DNA of 44,235 nucleotides. Origin: a bacterium (GTDB lineage Bacteria > Patescibacteriota > Minisyncoccia > UBA6257 > MFKM01). The DNA lies in contig JAUYAV010000011.1 of NCBI GenBank assembly GCA_030693325.1, forward strand, positions 65,368-109,602. Reading direction: 5' to 3'. Numbering within the stretch: the first letter of the stretch is position 1; each line of letters opens with the position of its first letter. Shown here in pieces: positions 6,891 to 33,341 of the stretch. The position numbers and the translations under genes are program-made. The notes below the pieces were generated by a model. It ran no database searches. It saw only the letters and a list, made by a program, of their open reading frames with translations, and was not told where the DNA came from.

Positions 6891-6928
6891 TACTATTGTA
6901 ATTCCACGATCGTGGAATTACAATAGTA
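6891..6928. repeat. Type A 38-bp perfect palindrome, copy A1
   Basis: Arm TACTATTGTAATTCCACGA (6891-6909) is followed with no loop by its exact reverse complement (6910-6928). It lies 2 bp beyond the trmH stop codon. On each strand it contains TTGTAA-N17-TACAAT, a possible outward promoter. The flanks AGC (left) and AATT-then-T-run (right) are shared with copy A3. No U-run follows immediately on either strand, so a classical terminator is unlikely. Confidence 0.97.
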
Positions 6929-6930
6929 AA

Positions 6931-7431
6931 TTATTTTTTGGCTTTATACTCCAGGGAGAAAACCACTATCCCGAAAGCAACCGCCACGTTAAGCGATTCT
7001 TTTTTGCCTTTCATCGGGATTTCCAAAATTTTATCCGAACGTTTTAAAATTGATGCGGGCAAACCCTTAATCTCATTTCCTAAAACCAAAGCAATCTTCG
7101 GGGCACTATCACGCGTGATAGTGCCTTTAGTTTTAATTAAAACACTGGAGTAAGGAATGGATTTTTTGCTTTGCTCAATGCTAAAAATTTTATAGCCGTC
7201 CCCTTTTAACTTATCTATCAATTTTGTGGTTGAGTCAATTTTTTCCCAGGCCACGTATTTTTCCGCGCCTAAGGAAACCTTGGTCAATTGCGGCCGGTAT
7301 TTCCCGAATTGGTCAATTGGCGCCGGCGTAATGCCGCAAAGATAAATTTTTTCTATCCCGGCCGCATCGGCAGTCCGAAAAATAGAACCAACATTATGCA
7401 AACTGCGGATATTGTGAAGGATAATAATCAT
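6931..7431 (-). CDS. SpoU/TrmH-family RNA 2'-O-methyltransferase
   Basis: This protein shows the three SPOUT knot motifs: NIRSLHNVGSIFRTADAAG near the N-terminus, LVLGNEIKGLP, and the C-terminal IPMKGKKESLNVAVAFG with the SAM-binding trefoil knot. It would methylate a ribose 2'-OH in tRNA or rRNA using S-adenosylmethionine; the target is unknown. I choose the ATG at 7431 (166 residues) because it starts just before the first motif. A TTG at 7446 is an in-frame alternative. The gene is bracketed by two identical 38-bp palindromes (6891-6928 and 7456-7493). A third, unrelated 24-bp palindrome lies in frame inside it (7102-7125), encoding roughly GTITRDSA just before the second motif. Confidence 0.9.
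   Translation of the reverse strand: MIIILHNIRSLHNVGSIFRTADAAGIEKIYLCGITPAPIDQFGKYRPQLTKVSLGAEKYVAWEKIDSTTKLIDKLKGDGYKIFSIEQSKKSIPYSSVLIKTKGTITRDSAPKIALVLGNEIKGLPASILKRSDKILEIPMKGKKESLNVAVAFGIVVFSLEYKAKK
7102..7125. repeat. 24-bp perfect palindrome inside the trmH-like coding sequence
   Basis: GGCACTATCACG (7102-7113) is followed directly by its reverse complement (7114-7125). It is exactly 8 codons, in frame, and falls in the variable linker just before the LVLGNE motif, where family members tolerate length change. It resembles in principle the in-frame palindromic elements known from Rickettsia. Whether it is an insertion cannot be proven without homologues. Confidence 0.9.
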
Positions 7432-7455
7432 TTTAATTTTAATCAATTTTTGATT

Positions 7456-7493
7456 TACTATTGTAATTCCACGATCGTGGAATTACAATAGTA
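7456..7493. repeat. Type A 38-bp perfect palindrome, copy A2
   Basis: This copy is identical in all 38 bases to A1 and A3, and extends to 40 bp of perfect symmetry (7455-7494). It lies 24 bp upstream of the chosen trmH ATG. Its minus-strand TTGTAA-N17-TACAAT (with -10 at 7460-7465) is correctly placed to drive trmH. Together with A1 it brackets a 603-bp unit containing only trmH. Confidence 0.97.
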
Positions 7494-12972: not shown

Positions 12973-13010
12973 TACTATTGTAATTCCACGATCGTGGAAT
13001 TACAATAGTA
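12973..13010. repeat. Type A 38-bp perfect palindrome, copy A3
   Basis: Identical to A1 and A2 over all 38 bases. Like A1 it is preceded by AGC and followed by AATT and a T-rich stretch. It lies 224 bp downstream of the first PaaX/Cas2-like gene and about 105 bp upstream of the 12868 start. With the degenerate copy A4 it brackets an 857-bp unit carrying that gene. Confidence 0.97.
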
Positions 13011-13234
13011 AATTGTTTTTGAGCAATTTATGGATTTTGAAATAAAAATTTTAATTATCTTCGTCAATCTCTAGCGCTTTTGCGGAAAATCAGCAATTTG
13101 AATTCGGCAATCCGGCAAAATAATGCGGCAATTGCCGATTTAAATAAGGATAATGCGATAATTATAGAAATAATCCGGCAAATCTAAAATTGCCGGATTA
13201 AGGACAGGTTTGCCGCATTCCCGAGAATTAAAGA
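13011..13234. repeat. Non-coding spacer with cluster of CGGCAA inverted repeats
   Basis: No convincing gene is seen in 12869-13234. Besides copy A3 it holds many copies of a CGGCAA/TTGCCG core. There is a perfect stem TAATCCGGCAA (13171-13181) with its complement at 13190-13200 (8-nt loop). CGGCAATTGCCG (13126-13137) is a perfect palindrome. AATGCGGCAA (13122-13131) pairs with 13210-13219. This could fold as nested hairpins on either strand, lying just 3' of the PaaX/Cas2-like gene: a possible structured 3' end, element terminus or small RNA. Confidence 0.7.
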
Positions 13235-13786
13235 TTAAGGTTTTATATTAAGGGTGCCTTGTTTCTCTTTGTTTACTGCGAAAATATGGATATAAGGCAA
13301 TAAATTCAATTCTTTCAGGAAATGAAAAAATTCTTCCGGCAATTGGCTGTCCCCCGTCCAAACGCTTTTCTGAAGCAAGGAAAAATTGAAGTTAATAAGG
13401 GTATTTCTTAACCAATCCCTCTTTTTCTTTTGATTTTCCGGAATGTCAAAAACTATAATCTTCAAATAATCTTTTTTCTTTTCAATGGATTTTAGGGGAG
13501 ACAAAAGTTTTTTATTTTTTAAAATTTTTAAACGCTCCAACCCTTTTGACGTCAATTTCCAAATCGTCTTTTTGTCCTCGCTTTTTTTCTTTTCAACAAA
13601 TCCCTGCTTTTGGAGCTGATAAAGAAGGTTGTGGAATTTTTGGTGTTCTTCTTTTGAGCTTTGTGACCGGCCGGAATGCGAATATTGCCGGAGGTTTTTG
13701 TAAGAAGTGTGATAATCATTAAAAACAACATTCGTTGCTATCCATTTTAAATTCCTAAGAATTTCTAAAACTATTTCTGTTGACAT
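13235..13786 (-). CDS. PaaX-like winged-helix protein with Cas2-like C-terminal domain, copy 1
   Basis: Of the 183 residues, the N-terminal half (about 1-100) is a predicted winged helix-turn-helix (LLYQLQKQGFVEKKK...IWKLTSKGLERLK). The C-terminal half (about 105-175) is a ferredoxin-like Cas2/PaaX_M-type domain with LKIIVFDIPENQKKKRDWLR (D114), FSLLQKSVWTG and LPEEFFHFLKELNLLPYIHIF. PaaX proteins are DNA-binding repressors, and Cas2 proteins are structural subunits or nucleases. No cas1 or CRISPR array is nearby, so this is not an adaptation module. The start ATG at 13786 is 9 nt after TACAAT inside degenerate palindrome A4, and perfect copy A3 lies downstream. A second homologue at 22572-23087 has the same arrangement with different palindromes. 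It may be an autoregulator or part of a mobile element. Confidence 0.8.
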   Translation of the reverse strand: MSTEIVLEILRNLKWIATNVVFNDYHTSYKNLRQYSHSGRSQSSKEEHQKFHNLLYQLQKQGFVEKKKSEDKKTIWKLTSKGLERLKILKNKKLLSPLKSIEKKKDYLKIIVFDIPENQKKKRDWLRNTLINFNFSLLQKSVWTGDSQLPEEFFHFLKELNLLPYIHIFAVNKEKQGTLNIKP

Positions 13787-13791
13787 ATGTT

Positions 13792-13829
13792 TACTATTGT
13801 AATTCCACGATCGCAGAATTACAATAGTT
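13792..13829. repeat. Type A palindrome, degenerate copy A4 over the PaaX/Cas2-like promoter
   Basis: This copy matches A1-A3 except for three bases in the right half (centre CGATCGCAG instead of CGATCGTGG, and the last base). It sits in the divergent spacer between the PaaX-like gene and the sugar transferase. On the minus strand TTGTAA (13819-13824)-N17-TACAAT (13796-13801) ends 9 nt before the PaaX-like ATG. On the plus strand TTGTAA (13797-13802)-N17-TACAAT (13820-13825) points at the sugar transferase. It is a plausible promoter-operator. Confidence 0.9.
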
Positions 13830-13856
13830 GATGATTTGGCTGATTTATTGTAAAAT
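13828..13856 (+). promoter_or_regulatory. Putative promoter of the sugar transferase-flippase operon
   Basis: TTGATG (13828-13833), exactly 17 nt, then TAAAAT (13851-13856), with 14 nt to the ATG at 13871. It starts at the edge of palindrome A4, so binding of the PaaX-like protein there could affect it. Confidence 0.5.
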
Positions 13857-13870
13857 AAAATGAATTTTAT

Positions 13871-15199
13871 ATGAGCTTTAATTTCAAATTAAAACAATTA
13901 ATTGTCTTACTTGGCGATGTTTTTTTGTTCTACGGAGCGCTGATTTTGACTTTGTTAATCCGCTACGGCCAGCCGGCCTGGATAAATTCTTTCGGGGATC
14001 ACTTAAGGCCATTTTCTTGGGTTTTGATTGTCTGGCTGTCAATTTTTTTTCTGACTGATTTATACCAGGTGAAAATTCTTAAAAACGACCGCAATCTGAT
14101 CGGCAATCTTTTTCTGGCGGTAATTATCGCCACGGCGATTTCGGTAATACTTTTTTATTTGTTGGCTCCGGTTTCCAATTTAACCCCAAAAACTAACCTT
14201 TTGGTTTTCGGGGTTATCTTTGGGGTTCTAAGTTATCTTTGGCGATTACTGATAGCCAACGCCCTGCTCTTCGGCGGCTGGCGCTATCGCGTGCTGGTTA
14301 TAGGAGATTCGCCGAGAATCCAGGAAACAGTCGCTTTTCTGAAATCCAACCCTCTCCTCGGGTATGATATCGTTTTACAACTCAAAAAAAATCAAGAAAT
14401 CAACCAGCAAAATCTTTTGAAAATTATCAGCGAAAATAAAATTAACACTGTTGTTCTTCCACCTCAAATCAAAAAAGAATTTGCGGTTGTTAAATCAATT
14501 TACCGATTACTACCTCTTGAACTAACAATCACCGATTTCGTCAGTTTTTATGAAACAATCTTTGCAAAGATTCCTTTAGAAGAGCTGGAAGAGAGCTGGT
14601 TTATTGAAAAAATAATCACCAAGCGGCCTTTATTTGACGCTATTAAAAGATTATCCGATATAATTTTATCTCTTATTTCACTTATCGTTTTTTCGCCGAT
14701 AATTTTATTGATTGCCGTTCTGACTAAAATCACTTCCAAAGGGCCGGTTATTTTCAAACAGCAAAGAACGGGGAAAAATGACAAAGTTTTCTGGCTTTAT
14801 AAATTCAGAACTATGAGAGTTGAAATAAAGGGCCCGCTCTGGACAACGGAAAATGACAAACGCCTGACGCCGACGGGAAAAATCCTCCGCTTCAGCCATT
14901 TAGATGAGCTCCCCCAGCTCTGGAATATTCTCAAAGGCAATATCGCTTTTGTCGGGCCCAGAGCCGAAAGGATAGAACTGGTGGAACAATATAAAAAACT
15001 TCCCTATTATGAAATCCGACACATCATCAAGCCGGGATTCACCGGCTGGGCTCAAATCTCTTACCGCCCCAGCGCCTCCTTGGAAGAAGCGTTTGAAAAA
15101 CTGAAGTATGACATTTACTATATTAAAAACCGCTCGCTGTTTTTGGATTTACTGATTATTTTCAAAACCATAAGATACGTTTTCACTAAAGTAAAATGA
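13871..15199 (+). CDS. Polyprenyl-phosphate glycosyl-1-phosphate transferase (bacterial sugar transferase)
   Basis: A 442-residue protein of the WbaP/WcaJ type that starts glycan assembly by moving a sugar-1-phosphate from a nucleotide sugar to undecaprenyl phosphate at the inner membrane. N-terminal hydrophobic segments lie at about 9-30, 48-65, 79-99 and 108-126, followed by a CoA-binding-like Rossmann part (WRYRVLVIGDSP). The C-terminal catalytic domain follows a re-entrant helix at about 264-288 and contains FKQQRTGKNDKVFWLYKFRTM-type residues, IAFVGPRAER and KPGFTGWAQISYR. The gene overlaps the following flippase by 4 nt (ATGA), so initiation and export are translationally coupled. The sugar specificity is unknown. 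Confidence 0.92.
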   Translation: MSFNFKLKQLIVLLGDVFLFYGALILTLLIRYGQPAWINSFGDHLRPFSWVLIVWLSIFFLTDLYQVKILKNDRNLIGNLFLAVIIATAISVILFYLLAPVSNLTPKTNLLVFGVIFGVLSYLWRLLIANALLFGGWRYRVLVIGDSPRIQETVAFLKSNPLLGYDIVLQLKKNQEINQQNLLKIISENKINTVVLPPQIKKEFAVVKSIYRLLPLELTITDFVSFYETIFAKIPLEELEESWFIEKIITKRPLFDAIKRLSDIILSLISLIVFSPIILLIAVLTKITSKGPVIFKQQRTGKNDKVFWLYKFRTMRVEIKGPLWTTENDKRLTPTGKILRFSHLDELPQLWNILKGNIAFVGPRAERIELVEQYKKLPYYEIRHIIKPGFTGWAQISYRPSASLEEAFEKLKYDIYYIKNRSLFLDLLIIFKTIRYVFTKVK

Positions 15200-16689
15200 T
15201 TTCCAAGTTAAAAACTTTTCTCTTCAAAAATATTTCTCCTCGCCAAACTATAACCAAAAATATTTTTTGGTTAAGCGCCAGCCAAATCGGAACCCGCATT
15301 TTTCGGGTAATTATAATAATTTACGCGGCGCGGATTTTAGGCGCCGCGGAATACGGCGTTTTTTCTTACGTCTTGGGTTTCGCCGGTTTTTTTGCCGCCT
15401 TTGCCGATATCGGCATCAATTCTTTGCTTACCAGAGACATTGCCGGCCATCCGGAACAAAGAAACAGCTATTTCTCCACCAGTTTCTGGATAAAAATGGT
15501 TTTGTTGTTCTTCACCGCTCTTTTGATCGCCCTCGTGGCTCCTCATTTCTCAAATATTAAAGAGGCTTCTTTTTTGATTCCTTTTGTGGCGCTAATGGTT
15601 ATTTTTGACGGTATCGGAGAATTCGCCATCGCTTTTCTCCGCGGCATGGAAAAAATGCAATGGGAAGCTCTCATTTTGTCTGTTGAAAATATAGCCCTTA
15701 TGGTAATAGGATTTATTTTCCTTGTCATTTCCCCCACTTCAAAATCGCTGACTTTTTCATATATCGCCAGTTCCGGTTTGGCGACGCTTTTGGCGATTTT
15801 CATTCTCAGAAATCAATTTTCTAAAATTTTCCGTTATTTTGACAAAAAATTGGCTTATAGAACCATTAAAGCGGCTCTGCCTATCGCCTTCTCAACGGCG
15901 ATGGGAGTTTTTATGATCAACAACGATATGGTAATGCTCGGCTGGTGGCGAACGGCTACGGAAATCGGCTATTATTCGGTTGGCCAGCGCATTGTCCCCT
16001 TTCTTTATATCTTGTCTTCTCTTTTTGCCGGCGCAATTTTCCCCGTCCTCTCCCGCTTTGCCCAGCAAAATGAAAAAGAAAAAGAAAAAAATCTTAATGA
16101 AAAATCAATGGCCTCACTTTTTTTGGTAGCCATTCCCTTGGTAGTTGGAGGCATTATTTTAGCCGAACCAATCATTGGATTAACTTTTGGCCAGGTCTAC
16201 TTGCCGGGAGTTCCCGCTTTTCGCGTCTTGCTCGCCACCCTGCTCTGGATATACCCCATCACTTTTCTTTCTTATTTGGTTTTGGCCCATAATCAGCAGA
16301 AAAAAATTGTTAAATACGCAATAATCTGTTCTTTGGCAAATGTGCTTTTTAACGTCCTTCTAATCCCTGTATGGGGAATTATCGGCGCCGCTATCGCCAC
16401 TTTTGTCAGCCAAATTTTTTATGTCTTCCCAACGTGGAAATATATGAAAAAATTTAGCGACTTTAAAACTCTGCGTCATCTGAAAAAAATAATCGTGGGG
16501 GCGATTATTATGGGAGTAGTCAGCTTTATCCTTAATTACTTCAATGTAAACGTTATCTTGAATATCATTGTTTCCGCGGGGGTTTATTTCGGAGCGCTCT
16601 ATTTATTCAAAGAAAAAGTTTTAGGAGAAGTTTTAATTTTATTTAAAAAATTTCAAGACGCGCCCTCGCAATCTAATAATTTAAATTAG
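15196..16689 (+). CDS. Wzx-like polysaccharide flippase (MOP superfamily), copy 2
   Basis: A 497-residue polytopic membrane protein, paralogous to the flippase at 4888-6351. It has the same start pattern (LKTFLFKN then KNIFWLS), YAARILGAAEYGVFSYVLGF, FADIGINSLLTRDIA, and the later MVMLGWWRTATEIGYYSVGQR. It probably flips the lipid-linked oligosaccharide made by the neighbouring sugar transferase and glycosyltransferases. It is translationally coupled to the sugar transferase (ATGA overlap). It ends 1 nt from the convergent WecB-like gene with no terminator between them. Confidence 0.9.
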   Translation: MISKLKTFLFKNISPRQTITKNIFWLSASQIGTRIFRVIIIIYAARILGAAEYGVFSYVLGFAGFFAAFADIGINSLLTRDIAGHPEQRNSYFSTSFWIKMVLLFFTALLIALVAPHFSNIKEASFLIPFVALMVIFDGIGEFAIAFLRGMEKMQWEALILSVENIALMVIGFIFLVISPTSKSLTFSYIASSGLATLLAIFILRNQFSKIFRYFDKKLAYRTIKAALPIAFSTAMGVFMINNDMVMLGWWRTATEIGYYSVGQRIVPFLYILSSLFAGAIFPVLSRFAQQNEKEKEKNLNEKSMASLFLVAIPLVVGGIILAEPIIGLTFGQVYLPGVPAFRVLLATLLWIYPITFLSYLVLAHNQQKKIVKYAIICSLANVLFNVLLIPVWGIIGAAIATFVSQIFYVFPTWKYMKKFSDFKTLRHLKKIIVGAIIMGVVSFILNYFNVNVILNIIVSAGVYFGALYLFKEKVLGEVLILFKKFQDAPSQSNNLN

Positions 16690-16690
16690 A

Positions 16691-17881
16691 TCAAGATTGA
16701 TTCTTAAAATTACTAATGGCCTCAATAATTCTTTTGGCCGCTTTCCCATCGCCATAGGGATTTTGATCCTTTATCATCGCATTATAAGTGTTTTTATCAT
16801 CCAACAAATTTAAAGTTTCATTAATAATCTTTTCCGAACTTGTTCCTACTAATTTAGATGTTCCCGCCTCAACTCCTTCCTGCCGTTCCGTGTTTTCCCG
16901 CATAACCAGCACAGGTTTCCCCAGAGATGGGGCTTCTTCCTGTATGCCTCCTGAATCCGTAAGAATAAAATAAGAAATGCCCATCAAAAAAATAAATTCA
17001 TCATATTCCACCGGATTAATCAAATAAATATTAGGGCTATCTTTAAGCATTTCCCGCGCCAAATGCTGGACATTCGGATTGGGATGAACCGGATAAATAA
17101 TAACCACATCTTCCCGCCTTTTAACAATTTCTTTTATGGCGGAAAAAATATTCCTTAGCCCTTCTCCGAAGCTTTCTCTGCGGTGGGCCGTTAATAAAAT
17201 TATTTTTTTGTTTGTTTTTAAATCAATCTTATATTTATCTTTGAATATTTTTACGTAATTTTCCCGCATATTTTCTTCAGATTGCCTGTTTCTGACAAAC
17301 AGCAAAGAATCAATTGCGGTGTTGCCCGTTAATATAATATTGCTTTTTGATATTCCTTCTTTTAAGAGATTATCCGCGTCTCGCTCTGTCGGCGTAAAAT
17401 GAAGGTCGGCCAATCTTGAAATAAGCTGGCGGTTCATTTCTTCGGGGAAAGGACTGTATTTATTGTATGTTCTTAGCCCGGCTTCTATATGAGCTATGGG
17501 TATTTTGAAATGAAACCCAAGGAATGCGGCAAGAAACGCCGTTGAGGTATCCCCTTGGATAATCAGAAGGTCTGGTTTTTCTGTTTTTAAAATTCTTAAA
17601 AATTTAATTAATGAAAATCCGGTGTTGATTAGACTCATTGCTTTCTTGAATATATTGATATTTTTACCAAATAAGGCCTTATCATTAAGCGTAATTTTAA
17701 GATCATAATCGGGGGTTATTTTAAAAACCCTCAAAACCTGATTAAGCATTTCTTCATGTTGCCGAAAAACGCAAACTATACCATTTAAGGAAGGAGTGTT
17801 TTTTATTTCATTTATTAATGGGGCGAGTTTAATCGCTTCGGGGCGCGTTCCAAAAATTATAAGAATTTTTTTTGTTGGCAT
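16691..17881 (-). CDS. wecB: UDP-N-acetylglucosamine 2-epimerase (non-hydrolysing)
   Basis: This enzyme interconverts UDP-GlcNAc and UDP-ManNAc for surface glycans. Family signatures are IFGTRPEAIKLAPLI at the N-terminus, HIEAGLRTYNKYSPFPEEMN, LLTAHRRESFGEG, and ILTDSGGIQEEAPSLGKP with MRENTERQEGVEAGT. I choose the ATG at 17881 (396 residues), which begins MPTKKILIIFGTRPEA and leaves a 4-nt gap to the upstream gene. A TTG at 17902 would add 7 residues and overlap that gene. It is the last gene of the minus-strand run 16691-20739. Confidence 0.93.
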   Translation of the reverse strand: MPTKKILIIFGTRPEAIKLAPLINEIKNTPSLNGIVCVFRQHEEMLNQVLRVFKITPDYDLKITLNDKALFGKNINIFKKAMSLINTGFSLIKFLRILKTEKPDLLIIQGDTSTAFLAAFLGFHFKIPIAHIEAGLRTYNKYSPFPEEMNRQLISRLADLHFTPTERDADNLLKEGISKSNIILTGNTAIDSLLFVRNRQSEENMRENYVKIFKDKYKIDLKTNKKIILLTAHRRESFGEGLRNIFSAIKEIVKRREDVVIIYPVHPNPNVQHLAREMLKDSPNIYLINPVEYDEFIFLMGISYFILTDSGGIQEEAPSLGKPVLVMRENTERQEGVEAGTSKLVGTSSEKIINETLNLLDDKNTYNAMIKDQNPYGDGKAAKRIIEAISNFKNQS

Positions 17882-17885
17882 TTTT

Positions 17886-19097
17886 TTAAAATAAATTTTC
17901 AAATTTTCTCAAACAAATATCCTTGGTAAAATTAGCAAGAAGATATTTAAACCCATTATCACCGTATTCCCTTAGTTTATTCTTTTCCTGATAAATTTTC
18001 AAAACGATATCCAGGGCTTTTTTATCATCATCAGAAATTGCGCTAAAACCGCATTCGGCCTCTTTGACAATCCTATGAATGTCGCTTTCTTTGTGGACAA
18101 AAGCGATAACCGGGATGGCGGCGGCCATATACCCCAGAAGCTTTGCGGGAACCGCCGGCGTGGTATTTTTTGCGCTTAAACTTATCAGTCCCACATCCGA
18201 ATCTTTCGCAAGCTCCGGATAATCCTCTTTGGAAACGAATGGTTGAAAAATGACATTATCAAGTTTGTAATTTTTTACTAATTCCAATAGTCGATTTTTA
18301 TCCGAACCGTCGCCGACAAGAAGAAAACAGATCTCTTTATTATCTTTCAATTCCAGAGCCAAACGGACAATCAAATCAAGGCCCTGTGATGGGCCCAAAA
18401 CGCCCGCAAAGAGAAAAATAAATTTATTTTCCAAACCGTATAATTTTCTGAATTTGCCGCTTTTTTTCGCATTTTCAAATGGCTTGGTATCTATCCAATG
18501 CGGAATAACAAACACTTTTTCATCAGAAATTCCCCTTTGTTCCTTCAAAAATTTTTTGTGCTCTTCGGAAGGCACCGCAATCGTATCGGCATTTTTATAG
18601 GCATCTCTTTCCATGCCCTCAAAAAATTTTATCAAGGGCTTATTTGTCAGAATGCCCAAATCAACCGCATTTTGAGGAAAAAAATCATGAAGATTCAAAA
18701 TATACTTTGCCTTATAAATCTTTTTTATTTTGTGAGCGGTCATTGTCAAAGGCAAAGGCGGACTATGTAAAATGACAACATCAAGCTTATCCTTTATATT
18801 CTTTTTAATGGCGTGAAAAAAAATATACGGCATTGTCAATTGGGCTATGCCCCTTATGACAAAATTAGCCTTATGGTGCGGCAGGGTTTTTATTCTTAAA
18901 ACCCTTATGCCGTTTTCATTTGAAATCTTCGGCCAAACAATGCTTTCGGAATCCGCCAAATTATATTTAGGATAAGAAGTGGCGACAAAAACATTATGCC
19001 CTTTATCGCGCAGCCCATCAGCTAAATCTTTCATCAATTGCGCAGCAGAACGAATTTCCGGCGGATAAGAATCCGTAATAATTAAAATATTTTTCAT
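17886..19097 (-). CDS. Glycosyltransferase family 4 (WbuB-like)
   Basis: A 403-residue GT-B retaining glycosyltransferase. The N-terminal acceptor domain starts NILIITDSYPPEIRSAAQ. The C-terminal GT4 domain includes FLFAGVLGPSQGLD, ILVGDGSDKNRL-type residues and TPAVPAKLLGYMAAAIPVIA, with the donor-binding region near VKEAECGF. The N-terminal layout resembles WbuB/WcaI-type transferases that use aminosugar or fucosamine donors, but the exact sugar is unknown. It sits immediately upstream of the UDP-GlcNAc 2-epimerase gene, whose product or a derivative could be its donor. It is probably cytosolic or peripheral to the membrane. Confidence 0.88.
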   Translation of the reverse strand: MKNILIITDSYPPEIRSAAQLMKDLADGLRDKGHNVFVATSYPKYNLADSESIVWPKISNENGIRVLRIKTLPHHKANFVIRGIAQLTMPYIFFHAIKKNIKDKLDVVILHSPPLPLTMTAHKIKKIYKAKYILNLHDFFPQNAVDLGILTNKPLIKFFEGMERDAYKNADTIAVPSEEHKKFLKEQRGISDEKVFVIPHWIDTKPFENAKKSGKFRKLYGLENKFIFLFAGVLGPSQGLDLIVRLALELKDNKEICFLLVGDGSDKNRLLELVKNYKLDNVIFQPFVSKEDYPELAKDSDVGLISLSAKNTTPAVPAKLLGYMAAAIPVIAFVHKESDIHRIVKEAECGFSAISDDDKKALDIVLKIYQEKNKLREYGDNGFKYLLANFTKDICLRKFENLF

Positions 19098-19116
19098 TGT
19101 TAAAATGGGTTAACGG

Positions 19117-20739
19117 CTATTTAAAATAATTTGAGAATCTTTCTTTGGCTCTTTCGTATTTATCGCCCCATCCTTTCATTACCCGAAGCTGTTCCTCAAG
19201 ATCCAACATCAATTTTGCCGAAATGAGAATTGACTCTATGGAATCCCCCTCTTCGTTGTTCGCTATTTTTCTGCCTATTGTCCGGTACATATCCCTGTAG
19301 CTGTTCGTTTTGAAGATTCTCTTTTTTCTGATTATTTTATGATTATCTTCGGACTGGTATTTTATAGCATCTGTTATTCTCACGTTTCTTCCATAAACCT
19401 TTAGCTCCACGTGATCTCTCGGCCCTACTCTTGAGGTGCCTTTTTCACTGAAAGTCGTAGTGAAGGCCGCGCCGTTTTCAAGTTCTATCCATACTTCAAT
19501 GGAATCATCCTGTAAGAGCTTGATATTGAAATTTTTCGGTTTGCTGAAATTATTAAGATGAAGAAAATGGTCAATCTGATGGCAACCGTTCGCAAGAAAA
19601 GTGCTTCTTGAAACCGGCCAGTTGTACCAAAAAAATTCGGGTTGAATTAATTCATAAACTATTGAATGATACGAAATCGGATCGCCATATTTTACGCCAA
19701 GGTCTTTAAGGGCCATTTTGTTAAATATTCCGTAACGCTTGTGAAACCCGACAAAAAAACGCCTGCCGACTCTTTTAAGGACTTCTTCCAACTCATTTAG
19801 TTCGTCATAGTCCATAACAATCGGTTTTTCTTCCATAACATACGCTCCCTGATTTAAGGCATGCGAAACTATTGGGAAATGAGTATGGTTGTAGCTGGCA
19901 ACGAAATAAACATCATGTTTTTCATCTTTTCCCGGGAAAGGCGACGAGTCCCATTTTTGGACTCTCCGTTCTAAAAATATTTGCGTTGGGTCAATTTCGT
20001 GGACTGATTTTATGTCTACAAACGGCCTGGTGTAAGGAAGGATATTGATTTTTGCGTAATTACCATAACCGAACAAAACTCCGCTCTTTTTTTTGGAGTT
20101 TGTCTTTTTGATTTGGCCTTTCGTTTCTAACACTGGACTCGCGTCTCGCGCGTCAATTTTTTGAGATTCAAGCCATGTATTATTTTCAATCTCCTTTTTC
20201 AATCCATCCGCCAATCCCCTTTGTGTTTCCTCGGAAATTTCTATTCCCGAATAAATGCTCCACCCTTTGATATTTTTCCACCAAACATTTTGTGATTCAT
20301 TTTTTTTAACCGGAGAATATAAAATTGTATCCGCCGGTATTTCGGGGATGCCTGATTTATCAATTTTAAAAATAAGTTCTTTAGGCAAGACAACCCGTTC
20401 CACAAGAGCCGGATGTAAAGGAGCTACGAAACCGACCAATTCTCCTTCGGGAAAACTTTGATTATCGGCGCTTTCAATAATTTTTCCAAAACCGCAGGAA
20501 ATATATTTTTCATTGCGCCTGTCTTCTCTGATTCTGGACCAAATTTTTGTAAATAATCCCTGGGGACCGACAACGGGAAAATAATTAATCAGCAACCTTA
20601 AGCTCTTGGGTCTCGTGTGATAAACATTTTCAAGTTTTTCAAGATTTTTCCAAGTCAAAACTTGAATCCTGTACTCATTTTTGTTTCGGCAGTAATCCAA
20701 AAAACCGCCCAGCCATTTTTTCCCCGTAAGTATTCTCAT
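19117..20739 (-). CDS. Gfo/Idh/MocA-family oxidoreductase with N-terminal alcohol-dehydrogenase-like segment
   Basis: The 540 residues contain a Gfo/Idh/MocA NAD(P)-dependent oxidoreductase in the C-terminal part: the Rossmann motif VLFGYGNYAK near residue 220, the EKP motif in YVMEEKPIVMDYDEL, and GCHQIDHFLHL with the catalytic His region. Residues about 1-210 are not typical of the family; YISCGFGKIIES...GELVGFVAPLHPALVERVVLP resembles the GroES-like part of medium-chain (zinc) dehydrogenases. It probably oxidises or isomerises a nucleotide or lipid-linked sugar in the glycan pathway. The N-terminal part seems to lack a full second Rossmann domain, so it may be a remnant of a longer MDR-Gfo/Idh fusion. 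Confidence 0.8.
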   Translation of the reverse strand: MRILTGKKWLGGFLDYCRNKNEYRIQVLTWKNLEKLENVYHTRPKSLRLLINYFPVVGPQGLFTKIWSRIREDRRNEKYISCGFGKIIESADNQSFPEGELVGFVAPLHPALVERVVLPKELIFKIDKSGIPEIPADTILYSPVKKNESQNVWWKNIKGWSIYSGIEISEETQRGLADGLKKEIENNTWLESQKIDARDASPVLETKGQIKKTNSKKKSGVLFGYGNYAKINILPYTRPFVDIKSVHEIDPTQIFLERRVQKWDSSPFPGKDEKHDVYFVASYNHTHFPIVSHALNQGAYVMEEKPIVMDYDELNELEEVLKRVGRRFFVGFHKRYGIFNKMALKDLGVKYGDPISYHSIVYELIQPEFFWYNWPVSRSTFLANGCHQIDHFLHLNNFSKPKNFNIKLLQDDSIEVWIELENGAAFTTTFSEKGTSRVGPRDHVELKVYGRNVRITDAIKYQSEDNHKIIRKKRIFKTNSYRDMYRTIGRKIANNEEGDSIESILISAKLMLDLEEQLRVMKGWGDKYERAKERFSNYFK

Positions 20740-20784
20740 AATGCTATTAAATCACAATTAACGAAAAAAGTTAATTAATTATTT

Positions 20785-21615
20785 TTATTTCTTTCTGCCG
20801 TATTTATCCTCAAATCTTATGATATCGTCTTCTTCTAAATAATCGCCGCTCTGAACTTCAATTATTTCCAAATTCTTGCCGGTCGGGTTTTCCAACCGGT
20901 GTTTGAAACCGATCGGAACATCAAAAGTTTGATGCGGATTCAAGTTAAAAATTTTTTCGTTTAAATTCACTTTCGCCTTTCCTTTCAAAACTACCCAGTG
21001 CTCCGCTCTTTTATGATGAAGCTGCAAACTTAATTTCTGTTTCGGCTTCACTAAAATATTTTTCACTTTAAAGCCATTCCCTTCTTCAATAACTCCAAAA
21101 TACCCCCAGGGCCGATGGACTTTAGCTTGCAGCTCATTAACGCATTTTTTTAAAAGCCATGAGCTGGACTGGATTTTCCCGCCTGGCCCGACATTAAAAA
21201 CCATTTTACAATTAATTTTTTCACAAACCGCCACTTCGGGAATATTCTTTTTGGTTCTGTCGCCGCCGTTGGCAAAAATATCAGGCCGGATTTTTTTTAA
21301 TTCCCCGGAAACGCTCATATCAGCCGGATTTTTAGGATGACCGGTCAGAATCACTTTATCAACGACTGCCAGCGCTTTTAACAATTCCCTTCTCTCTTTC
21401 TGGGGCATAAAAACAAATCCCTTCTTCTTCATCAGCCAATTATCGTTATTCAAGATAACGACCAGTTTGTCGCCTAATTTTTTTGCCGTTTCAAAAAGCC
21501 GGATATGTCCGATATGGACCGGGTCAAACCCTCCGCTGACAGCGACAATCACCGGTTTTCTATTTTTTCCGGCATTTTTCATAAAGTTTATTTTCTGATT
21601 TATTTTTAATTTCAT
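20785..21615 (-). CDS. Nucleotidyltransferase-cupin fusion (RfaE/TagD-like plus ManC-type isomerase domain)
   Basis: The N-terminal domain (about 20-160) is a cytidylyltransferase-type fold with SGGFDPVHIGH (H34, H37), the ANGGDR strand and a QSSSWLL motif like the ISSS motif. The C-terminal domain (about 165-270) is a cupin of the mannose-6-phosphate isomerase type II family: HRPWGYF, then QLHHKRAEHWVVLKG with candidate metal ligands H200/H201, E205, H206, and H239. Normally this cupin follows a GDP-mannose pyrophosphorylase domain; here it follows a different nucleotidyltransferase fold. It may make an activated sugar or sugar-alcohol. It overlaps the upstream GT2 gene by 56 nt from ATG 21615; ATG 21582 is an alternative. 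Confidence 0.85.
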   Translation of the reverse strand: MKLKINQKINFMKNAGKNRKPVIVAVSGGFDPVHIGHIRLFETAKKLGDKLVVILNNDNWLMKKKGFVFMPQKERRELLKALAVVDKVILTGHPKNPADMSVSGELKKIRPDIFANGGDRTKKNIPEVAVCEKINCKMVFNVGPGGKIQSSSWLLKKCVNELQAKVHRPWGYFGVIEEGNGFKVKNILVKPKQKLSLQLHHKRAEHWVVLKGKAKVNLNEKIFNLNPHQTFDVPIGFKHRLENPTGKNLEIIEVQSGDYLEEDDIIRFEDKYGRKK

Positions 21616-22384
21616 AAATCTTGGAGTCCACTAGAAAACGATACCAAAAAGCGTGCAAGAAATGGAATATCATACCTTCTTTGCCGTCAAGAAAACCGAG
21701 AAGGAAAAAATACCGATAAACAAAATAGAGAAACGGCCGGCAAAAAAGCGGCAGATTGTAATAAAAAACCCTCTTTTTTTTATCGCCATAATTCTCCTTA
21801 ATCGCCTCTTTCGCTTCCCGCGAAGAATAATTATTATGTTTTTCAATCCACCAAGTTAAATCTTTTTTATTATCGTCAATGAAATCATTTTCCAATTTCC
21901 CGGCTTGACCGGCCGATAAAATAATGTGTTCGTCCATTTCTCTTTCTTCGGAGCGCGCTTTCCCGTTTTTAAAAAGCCGCAAAATCCAAGTCGGATAATA
22001 ACCGCCGTGCTTTATCCAGCGGCCCATAAAATATACGCGCCGTTTTATGCAGTAGCCGTTTATATTATCGGATTCGTTTTTTAGTTTTTCAGTTATTTCA
22101 GCTTTCAATTCTTCGGTCAGATATTCATCGGCGTCTAAACGCAAAATCCAGTCGTTTTTTATTTTCAAATTATCCAGAGCCCAGTTGAATTGTTCGGCCT
22201 GATTAACAAAGGAATGTTTTACGATATTCAGAGTATATTTTTTGGCGATTTCCAAGGTTTTATCACTGCTGAAAGAATCAACAATAATAATTTCACTCGC
22301 CCAGCCGGCGATGCTTTTAAGGCAATTTTCAAGATTCAATTCCTCGTTATAGGTTAAAATAATTACCGAAATTGGAAGTTTCAT
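21560..22384 (-). CDS. Glycosyltransferase family 2 (WaaE/KdtX-like)
   Basis: A 274-residue inverting GT-A transferase. The start PISVIILTYNEELNLENCLKSI and EIIIVDSFSSDKT are typical, and the donor-metal motif lies in ILRLDADEYL. The C-terminal part contains aromatic stretches (YFFLLGFLDGKEGMIFHFLHAFWYRFLV) that may contact the membrane, as in the WaaE-like group which adds glucose or similar sugars to core glycans. The next gene overlaps it by 56 nt. It starts the 20785-22384 operon after the inserted PaaX/Cas2-like unit, and a good promoter lies at 22442-22471. Confidence 0.88.
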   Translation of the reverse strand: MKLPISVIILTYNEELNLENCLKSIAGWASEIIIVDSFSSDKTLEIAKKYTLNIVKHSFVNQAEQFNWALDNLKIKNDWILRLDADEYLTEELKAEITEKLKNESDNINGYCIKRRVYFMGRWIKHGGYYPTWILRLFKNGKARSEEREMDEHIILSAGQAGKLENDFIDDNKKDLTWWIEKHNNYSSREAKEAIKENYGDKKKRVFYYNLPLFCRPFLYFVYRYFFLLGFLDGKEGMIFHFLHAFWYRFLVDSKIYEIKNKSENKLYEKCRKK

Positions 22385-22441
22385 AATTCATCTGGAAAAT
22401 TTCTTTAATTCCCGAAAATTAACACTAATTAGCTTTTAAGA

Positions 22442-22471
22442 ATTATACATCTTTGCCGTTAATGCCGTCAA
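22442..22471 (-). promoter_or_regulatory. Putative promoter of the GT2/nucleotidyltransferase operon
   Basis: Minus strand: TTGACG (22466-22471), 18-nt spacer, perfect TATAAT (22442-22447), then 57 nt to the ATG at 22384. It lies just downstream of palindrome B1, so the operon restarts after the inserted unit. The leader has no strong Shine-Dalgarno. Confidence 0.5.
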
Positions 22472-22488
22472 TTTTTTAAGTTTTCTGC

Positions 22489-22534
22489 ATATTTATATAC
22501 ACTTCTTGCGACCGCAAGAAGTGTATATAAATAT
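22489..22534. repeat. Type B 46-bp perfect palindrome, copy B1
   Basis: Two exactly complementary 22-nt arms (22489-22510 and 22513-22534) enclose AC. The core is TTATATACACTTCTTGCG and its complement. It lies 37 bp beyond the stop of the second PaaX/Cas2-like gene, mirroring copy A3 beside the first one. The sequence is unrelated to type A arms. Confidence 0.97.
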
Positions 22535-22571
22535 AAAACCGCGATCTTTTTTTCTATCTTAATAATTTATC

Positions 22572-23087
22572 TTAATTGCTGCTAACTATATCTTCTTCCG
22601 TGGCTTTAAAAAACCTTAAATATGGCAAAAGATTGGTATCGCTTAAATATTTTATGAATTCTTTGGGCAACGGCGCCGGACCAAGCCAAACGCTTTTTTG
22701 TAAAAGAATAAAACCCAAAAGCGTCAATTCTCCCCTCAACCAATTTCTCTGCTTTTTTCTTATTTCAGGAATATCAAAAATAACCACTAGCTCTTTCTTT
22801 TTGTTTTTAATTTTTAAATGTCCGAAGTGGGGAATTTTAGAAATTAATTTATTTTTTAAAAATTTCCTTCCTTGTTTAGTAATCGCCCAAATGCCATTTT
22901 TATTCTCTACTAAACCCCGTTTTTTAAGACGGGATAGAGTTATCCTCAAAGTTTGCTCTTTTAATTTTTGATAATCTATTCTTTTTAGTATAGGAACATC
23001 TTCCCAGCCCCTCATTCTTTTCCGTAACAATTTATAGCCGCCTGAATAATCGGTTAAAACAATAAGTAAATCATCTAATAAACTCAT
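22572..23087 (-). CDS. PaaX-like winged-helix protein with Cas2-like C-terminal domain, copy 2
   Basis: A 171-residue homologue of the 13235-13786 protein, clearly diverged. Its N-terminal winged helix includes TLRITLSRLKKRGLV, IWAITKQGRKFL. The C-terminal Cas2/PaaX_M-type domain has LVVIFDIPEIRKKQRNWLRG (D105), FILLQKSVWLGPAPLP and LLPYLRFFKATEED. The match between the two copies is strongest in this domain (FDIPE, RxWLR, LLQKSVW, LLPY). It interrupts an otherwise continuous glycan operon and is bracketed by type B palindromes (B1 downstream, degenerate B2 at the promoter). A TATAAT at 23097-23102 ends 9 nt before the ATG. It may be a self-regulating repressor or a component of a palindrome-bounded mobile unit. 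Confidence 0.8.
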   Translation of the reverse strand: MSLLDDLLIVLTDYSGGYKLLRKRMRGWEDVPILKRIDYQKLKEQTLRITLSRLKKRGLVENKNGIWAITKQGRKFLKNKLISKIPHFGHLKIKNKKKELVVIFDIPEIRKKQRNWLRGELTLLGFILLQKSVWLGPAPLPKEFIKYLSDTNLLPYLRFFKATEEDIVSSN

Positions 23088-23097
23088 ATTTATATTA

Positions 23098-23135
23098 TTA
23101 TATACATTTTAAACGATCGCAAGAGATGTATATAA
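23098..23135. repeat. Type B palindrome, degenerate copy B2 over the second PaaX/Cas2-like promoter
   Basis: The 38-nt copy keeps the outer arms TTATATACAT (23098-23107) and ATGTATATAA (23126-23135), and the right inner part CGCAAGAG like B1. The left inner arm has diverged (TTTAAACGA instead of TTCTTGCGA). It lies 10 bp upstream of the ATG and overlaps the -10 box. The centre CGATCGCA is also found in degenerate copy A4. Confidence 0.85.
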
Positions 23136-31716: not shown

Positions 31717-31764
31717 TTCAGCTTCGGCTGTATGCTTTAAACCACTATCGCAACTGTGATAAGC

Positions 31765-31801
31765 AAAAAGGAACACGGTGATAAATACCGTGTTCCTTTT
31801 T
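31765..31801 (+). terminator. Rho-independent (bidirectional) terminator
   Basis: A 15-bp perfect stem, AAAAAGGAACACGGT (31765-31779) with its complement (31787-31801), around a 7-nt loop, ends in a T-run. It lies 48 bp after the epimerase stop. The A-run and T-run on the two sides would allow termination in both directions. Confidence 0.9.
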
Positions 31802-31854
31802 GTATTTACAAAAATTACCCAGCGGACAACAGCTAAACGCAACCACAACTGGAC

Positions 31855-33267: not shown

Positions 33268-33289
33268 AAAGGCCGATAAAGCAATAAAT

Positions 33290-33318
33290 AAAACACCAGG
33301 ATTCATTCCTGGTGTTTT
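33290..33318 (+). terminator. Rho-independent terminator between convergent genes
   Basis: A 12-bp stem, AAAACACCAGGA (33290-33301) with its complement (33307-33318), loop TTCAT, then a T-run. It follows the radical-SAM stop by 22 bp and also faces the minus-strand methyltransferase that ends at 33342, so it likely serves both directions. Confidence 0.88.
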
Positions 33319-33341
33319 TTATTTCCTTATTATTGTTTAGC

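Follow-up and report, generated by a model that had tools for sequence, protein, structure and literature searches.

What are two small genes doing in a patescibacterial genome when each lies between two palindromes belonging to a family of its own? The question is raised by a stretch of 44,235 nucleotides, here called the window, which covers positions 65,368 to 109,602 of contig C11 in a 661-kb genome (G000). Patescibacteria (the candidate phyla radiation) have tiny genomes and few known mobile elements. To our knowledge, the REP/RAYT association is the main case known from bacteria in which a small palindrome and its cognate gene are dispersed jointly.

The two units of the window and their protein family

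The features of the window are collected in Table 1. Palindrome A reads TACTATTGTAATTCCACGATCGTGGAATTACAATAGTA, and the arms of palindrome B, TATATACACTTCTTGCG, flank a CGACCG centre. Perfect arms of at least 16 bp occur at seven centre positions in the window, compared with a mean and a maximum of 0 in 60 Markov-1 shuffles. Since perfect arms of even 14 bp or more never arose when the window was shuffled, the palindromes are not there by chance. Units A and B are both surrounded by glycan genes encoding a sugar transferase, glycosyltransferases, and a flippase. A preliminary description, made from sequence alone, had claimed that both genes are PaaX/Cas2-like winged-helix genes of the same architecture in a glycan locus, with perfect copies (A3, B1) downstream and degenerate copies (A4, B2) upstream, and that no HUH motif is visible; each of these claims held.

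Table 1. Features of the window, with positions counted from its first nucleotide
Feature	Position	Strand	Description
Palindrome A1	6891..6928		Lone, perfect; not present at the syntenic SpoU locus of the congener G001
SpoU methylase gene	6931..7446		Between A1 and A2
Palindrome A2	7456..7493		Lone, perfect; upstream of the SpoU gene
Palindrome A3	12973..13010		Perfect 38-bp dyad, centre CGATCG; downstream of the unit A gene
A3-gene spacer	13103..13215		Looser run of NCGGCAA
Unit A gene (P0001)	13235..13786	-	183 aa; winged helix and PaaX_M/Cas2-like domain; PaaX_M score 49.3 bits
Palindrome A4	13792..13829		Degenerate copy, 3/38 mismatches to A; 5-6 bp upstream of the unit A start codon
Palindrome B1	22489..22534		46 bp; perfect arms of 22 bp each, separated by 2 bp; central motif CGACCG; downstream of the unit B gene
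Unit B gene (P0002)	22572..23087	-	171 aa; winged helix and PaaX_M/Cas2-like domain; PaaX_M score 56.9 bits
Palindrome B2	23099..23134		Degenerate, centre CGATCG; upstream of the unit B gene; coordinates counted on the sequence
Hairpin	31764..31802		Strong, terminator-like, short loop; unrelated to the palindrome families
Hairpin	33286..33322		Strong, terminator-like, short loop; unrelated to the palindrome families

The SpoU gene was considered as a cargo cassette of A1 and A2. This was ruled out: G001 has SpoU at the same position without A1, and the gene is therefore native. No A-like copy corresponding to A2 was seen next to the SpoU gene in the G001 sequence.

The two proteins are 36% identical across 155 residues. 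Both pass the gathering cut-off of PaaX_M (PF20803, 24 bits), and neither meets the curated cut-off of the PaaX equivalog (TIGR02277, 264.55 bits; scores of 24.7 and 20.5 bits). The curated Cas2 cut-offs (Pfam 23.8, NCBIfam 24.5) are also unmet, with P0001 scoring 23.2 and 24.3 bits and P0002 scoring 19.1 bits in NCBIfam and being unlisted in Pfam. An AlphaFold model of P0001 (mean pLDDT 86) predicts a winged helix at residues ∼42 to 94 and a ferredoxin domain of β-α-β-β-α-β order at residues 105 to 171. When this model was used for a structure search, the sole match below an E value of 0.001 was PaaX of E. coli W (8a39), followed by a PaaX-like regulator and then, among others, by Cas2 chains; with a second structural aligner, coverage was mainly of the winged helix. 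Residues L58, D114, R123, S141, and W143 are invariant in 83 sequences. An invariant aspartate is common to Cas2 and this family; nuclease activity cannot be concluded from its conservation. The PaaX_M/Cas2-like protein is not known to cleave DNA, and PaaX_M proteins are not known to carry out strand-transfer chemistry. No conserved histidine column that could form an HUH motif was found among 101 homologues, an HxH-like string being present in only nine, and Pfam found PaaX_M rather than a Y1_Tnp domain in the window proteins.

Other mobilizing agents and origins were sought. A Y1 (IS200-type) transposase is present in four of the 12 genomes examined and was not found in G000 (the window's genome), G001, G010, G020, G027, G029, G037, or G051, all of which bear palindromes; HUH/RAYT mobilization in the window's genome was rejected on the absence of a Y1_Tnp match. 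CRISPR adaptation was rejected because Cas1 was found in none of these 12 genomes, compared with a match in 9/14 control genomes. A phage or plasmid origin was likewise rejected, since tblastn with the family hit nothing among 72,556 plasmid records and 50,697 phage records, and no hit was confirmed in viral contigs. In the open-access literature searched, we found nothing joining PaaX with Cas2 and nothing joining REP sequences, palindromes, and the Candidate Phyla Radiation; judging by title and abstract, the Patescibacteria or Parcubacteria papers that use a word beginning with palindrom- apparently do so in the name of CRISPR or for unrelated sites.

Palindromes around homologues and at lone sites

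Homologue loci were initially taken from 40 genomes besides the window's own, namely one congener and 39 members of its order, the relatives of the window's genome being MAGs named as Paceibacteria or Parcubacteria type. At most of these loci, CGATCG-centred palindromes lie on both sides of the gene; the two copies at one locus are nearly identical, and those of separate loci differ. Scanning named genomes added 80 loci, which belong to Wolfebacteria, Jorgensenbacteria, Harrisonbacteria, Giovannonibacteria, Sungbacteria, Liptonbacteria, and others. One mechanical rule was applied to homologue loci and control ORFs alike: of 78 independent homologue loci, 34 had matched palindromes on both sides, and of 328 control genes from those contigs, none did (Fisher p = 4e-28). 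When the units were pooled, a palindrome lay within 350 bp of 69/97, and 49/97 had palindromes on both sides. The palindromes are mostly 34 to 48 bp long, and the upstream copy lies near the start codon at many loci. Their arms are locus-specific and their centre is almost always CGRYCG, a core seen in 65 of the 69 units (CGATCG 52, CGACCG 5, CGGTCG 4, CGGCCG 4). Gene calls were simple longest-ORF calls. All the genomes are MAGs; the pattern nonetheless recurs in dozens of independent assemblies.

Of 287 genomes sampled across the phylum, 90 carry the family; its distribution is patchy, with up to 11 copies per genome. Among mostly more distant relatives, matched pairs were present at only 6 of 27 genes, with centres mostly CGGCCG or related; many homologues outside the window's order lack palindromes, which counts against the REP/RAYT-like reading given below. 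The preliminary description had proposed checking whether palindromes covary with protein clade. Arm sequence and protein phylogeny are weakly correlated (Mantel r = 0.15, p = 0.0005) and the signal is gone below ∼40% protein identity. We therefore infer fast arm turnover and reject the idea that arms track the deep phylogeny of the protein.

Palindromes are also found away from the gene. The window's genome holds 17 A-like copies, 12 of them with an identical 32-bp core, and palindrome A is present in G001 too; no lone copy of palindrome B was found in the stretches searched. In another genome, G051, each of the five units has a palindrome family of its own, and four of these families were also seen as lone copies. 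Compared with the units of other genomes, 42 of 56 lone palindromes best match a unit of their own genome, with five ties and ∼3% expected. Bracketing of the gene and the cognate match of palindromes to the units of their own genome are thus shown. Sites per genome were counted with a covariance model of the palindrome: at least three were present in 16 of 21 genomes carrying the gene versus 0 of 20 without it. After subtraction of two sites per gene, the counts were 6/21 versus 0/20 (p = 0.012; Mann-Whitney p = 0.12). The excess in gene-carrying genomes consists in part of the gene-flanking copies and is weaker once these are removed. Nearly all lone sites (74 of 76) are intergenic. They lie between convergent, divergent, and tandem gene pairs in 21, 11, and 39 cases versus 13, 19, and 39 expected (p = 0.013), and this lean to convergent over divergent pairs is the opposite of operator placement.

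Some further palindromes were observed along the way. At G001 sites orthologous to A sites (L058 ∼11019, L048:992, L067:141, L084:19794), the outer TACTAT..ATAGTA is partly kept and the centre ACGATCGT is kept, the arms being otherwise different; one case has a compensated change in both arms. In G015 (L245, L246, L248), a second palindrome type with the centre CCATGG matches that genome's own more distant homologue (L037), and at L245 and L248 it stands close beside CGATCG palindromes, two families side by side. Another short palindrome, unlike these and built around ATGTACGTCATCCGATGACGTACA, occurs many times in G058 (L348 and elsewhere) and G059.

Gain, loss, and joint divergence between congeners

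Units and lone palindromes turn over between congeners. G027 and G051 belong to the same genus and have ∼85 to 90% DNA identity. In G051, a 759-bp unit lies between an IscU-type and a NifU-type gene; in G027, the reading frames of these two genes overlap (gap of -1). The gene names, like trxB below, are what we take the genes to be from sequence and were not scored. Because the G027 genes overlap, insertion is likelier than deletion. In an outgroup check, two other family members gave only a partial match to the upstream gene, leaving the direction unsettled. A second G051 unit, of 747 bp, is likewise missing in G027 (gap of -15). The two clean unit-empty sites of G027 contain no palindrome. 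In addition, a lone 38-bp palindrome stands directly after a stop codon in G051 and is absent from G027, the gap there being 78 versus 37 bases, that is, a clean insertion of ∼40 bp. A-palindrome sites also differ between G000 and G001 at several syntenic positions. The unit junctions in the empty-site comparisons fall some tens of bases outside the palindromes, and no target-site duplication was seen in the congener comparisons. These were made at 77 to 90% identity, so that junctions are mostly blurred and only one lone insertion is clean to the base.

At one orthologous locus, the protein and both its palindromes have diverged jointly. G027 and G051 each carry a unit at the same place behind trxB, and the two unit proteins are 57% identical versus 80 to 90% for the neighbouring proteins; both palindromes have altered together, from TTACTAcaATAacctgCGATCG to TTACTAtgATAtgggcCGATCG. 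At an orthologous lone site, each genome has the centre of its own unit (GGGCCGATCGGCCC in G051, AGCGATCGCT in G027). Faster change of the unit protein is clear in some orthologous pairs (57 versus 80-90, 73 versus 81-90, and 68 versus 82% identity) and absent in others (85 versus 78 and 73 versus 63-75).

In G027 and G051, an octamer (TTGCCGAA/TTCGGCAA) forms dense clusters (L310:15610-15911, L313:1850-2172, L140:5316-5687, L295:1311-1605) that adjoin units or mark a site where the congener has a unit; compared with these, the NCGGCAA run in the A3-gene spacer of the window (Table 1) is looser. This short repeat, TTGCCGAA, was considered as a second component and rejected, as it lies beside units only in the G027/G051 genus.

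Likeness to known systems and competing explanations

The closest parallel is with the RAYT/TnpA-REP systems (REPtrons; PMC2817692, PMC8266576), in which a gene likewise lies between two palindromes, cognate copies are dispersed between genes, and protein and palindrome coevolve. Orthologous RAYT genes stay put while their palindromes change yet remain palindromic, and the gene can evolve faster than its neighbours (PMC2817692); the trxB-locus pattern is the one reported there. The criterion of two flanking copies of the gene's own palindrome is met by the counts given above, and that of cognate palindromes dispersed in the host genome is met except for palindrome B in the stretches searched. 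The criterion of an HUH motif with the catalytic tyrosine of Y1 transposases is not met, the Patescibacteria family lacking an HUH/Y1 motif and having an unrelated fold. REP sequences are hairpins with a GTAG-type head, whereas the palindromes here are mostly dyads with a CGRYCG centre; up to ∼17 copies were found per genome, compared with >100 for REP, and no BIME arrays were seen in the Patescibacteria genomes. The system thus meets the comparative criteria once used to recognize RAYT/REP and is REPtron-like without being a REPtron. PaaX repressors (PF20803; 8a39) share the winged helix with a PaaX_M Cas2-like domain and give the best structural match. The family differs from them in size (∼170-200 aa versus ∼300), in scoring far below the equivalog, in lacking a catabolic operon context, and in having a palindrome pair on both sides. 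With the Cas2/VapD fold it shares the ferredoxin-type domain, the invariant aspartate after strand 1 (FDIPE), and a Cas2-like QKSVW motif; it differs in scores just below the cut-offs, a fused winged helix, and the lack of Cas1 noted above.

On balance, we favour, by a modest margin, an apparently undescribed selfish system that resembles REP/RAYT but rests on an unrelated protein, in which binding and copying by the protein are inferred. In this view, the autonomous unit would be palindrome-gene-palindrome. The protein would most likely bind its own palindrome as a dimer, an inference without binding data, its winged helices reading the variable arms and its Cas2-like dimer lying over the CGRYCG centre. 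Lone palindromes would be non-autonomous elements, copies that are inserted in intergenic DNA and continue to fit the protein encoded in the same genome. The protein, alone or with host recombination, would cause the copying; this too is inferred, and any RAYT-type cleavage and strand transfer by it would be hypothetical. The upstream copy may double as the operator of its gene, and such an autoregulatory role is compatible with the REP/RAYT-like reading and likely.

A possible alternative is an autoregulated transcription factor with a regulon, whose palindromes are operators: the flanking pair would serve autorepression or looping, lone copies would be regulon sites coevolving with the regulator, and the gene would spread by horizontal transfer. 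PaaX is itself a repressor, the closest solved structure is E. coli PaaX, and at many loci only a short distance separates the upstream copy from the start codon. Against this reading, lone sites have no promoter bias (p = 0.013), one of them is a block insertion, the sets of sites differ between congeners, and the dyads are long, often perfect, and identical at up to a dozen sites, unlike ordinary degenerate operators. The preliminary description had offered an autorepressor as its own alternative. This remains possible as an added role of the upstream copy; alone, it does not explain the block insertion, the intergenic non-promoter sites, or the cognate match per genome. We consider a homing-type element unlikely. 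In that scheme, palindromes would be cut by the Cas2-like protein, either at their CGRYCG centre or when extruded as cruciforms; repair templated by another copy would then convert sites and place units at lone palindromes already there, resulting in concerted evolution. Gene-flanking and lone palindromes do change in concert within a genome, the Cas2-like domain has an invariant aspartate and arginine, and Cas2 chains are among the structural matches. However, no palindrome is present at the two clean unit-empty sites of G027, so the corresponding G051 units did not take the place of one that G027 has kept, and the protein has no known cleavage activity. Homing-type conversion is a serious mechanistic variant. 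It is very unlikely that another agency, such as a host or foreign transposase or replication errors, spreads the palindromes and that the protein merely uses them as binding sites. Some of the genomes examined do have a Y1 transposase, and template switching can make long palindromes perfect; against this stand the eight palindrome-bearing genomes, G000 included, in which no Y1 transposase was found, the lack of Cas1, and the cognate relation of lone palindromes to resident units.

The REP/RAYT-like reading agrees with the proposal in the preliminary description of a palindrome-associated family with a Cas2-fold protein analogous to RAYT-REP, which is supported, although movement of palindromes by the protein is not shown. 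Two outcomes that it had named as refuting came out otherwise: flanking palindromes are the general case among homologues, and close relatives (G027 and G051) are not alike in where their units lie. In a bolder form, the winged-helix/Cas2-fold protein alone would be the enzyme that copies its own palindrome and the palindrome-bracketed gene, making it a new class of mobile-element machinery and the REP/RAYT lifestyle one reached independently in Patescibacteria; we hold this to be slightly less probable than its contrary.

The claim is directly testable, as palindrome-protein pairs are short and can be synthesized. For annotation, genes of this family that resemble Cas2 or PaaX should not be taken for CRISPR Cas2 or ordinary PaaX regulators. 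If the REP/RAYT-like reading is true, the arrangement would have been invented a second time and independently, a hint that dispersing palindromes in this way is a general solution. Beyond CRISPR, the Cas2/PaaX fold may then also have a part in moving DNA, and the reading would account for a class of repeats present in about one third of the sampled Patescibacteria, whose genomes are streamlined.
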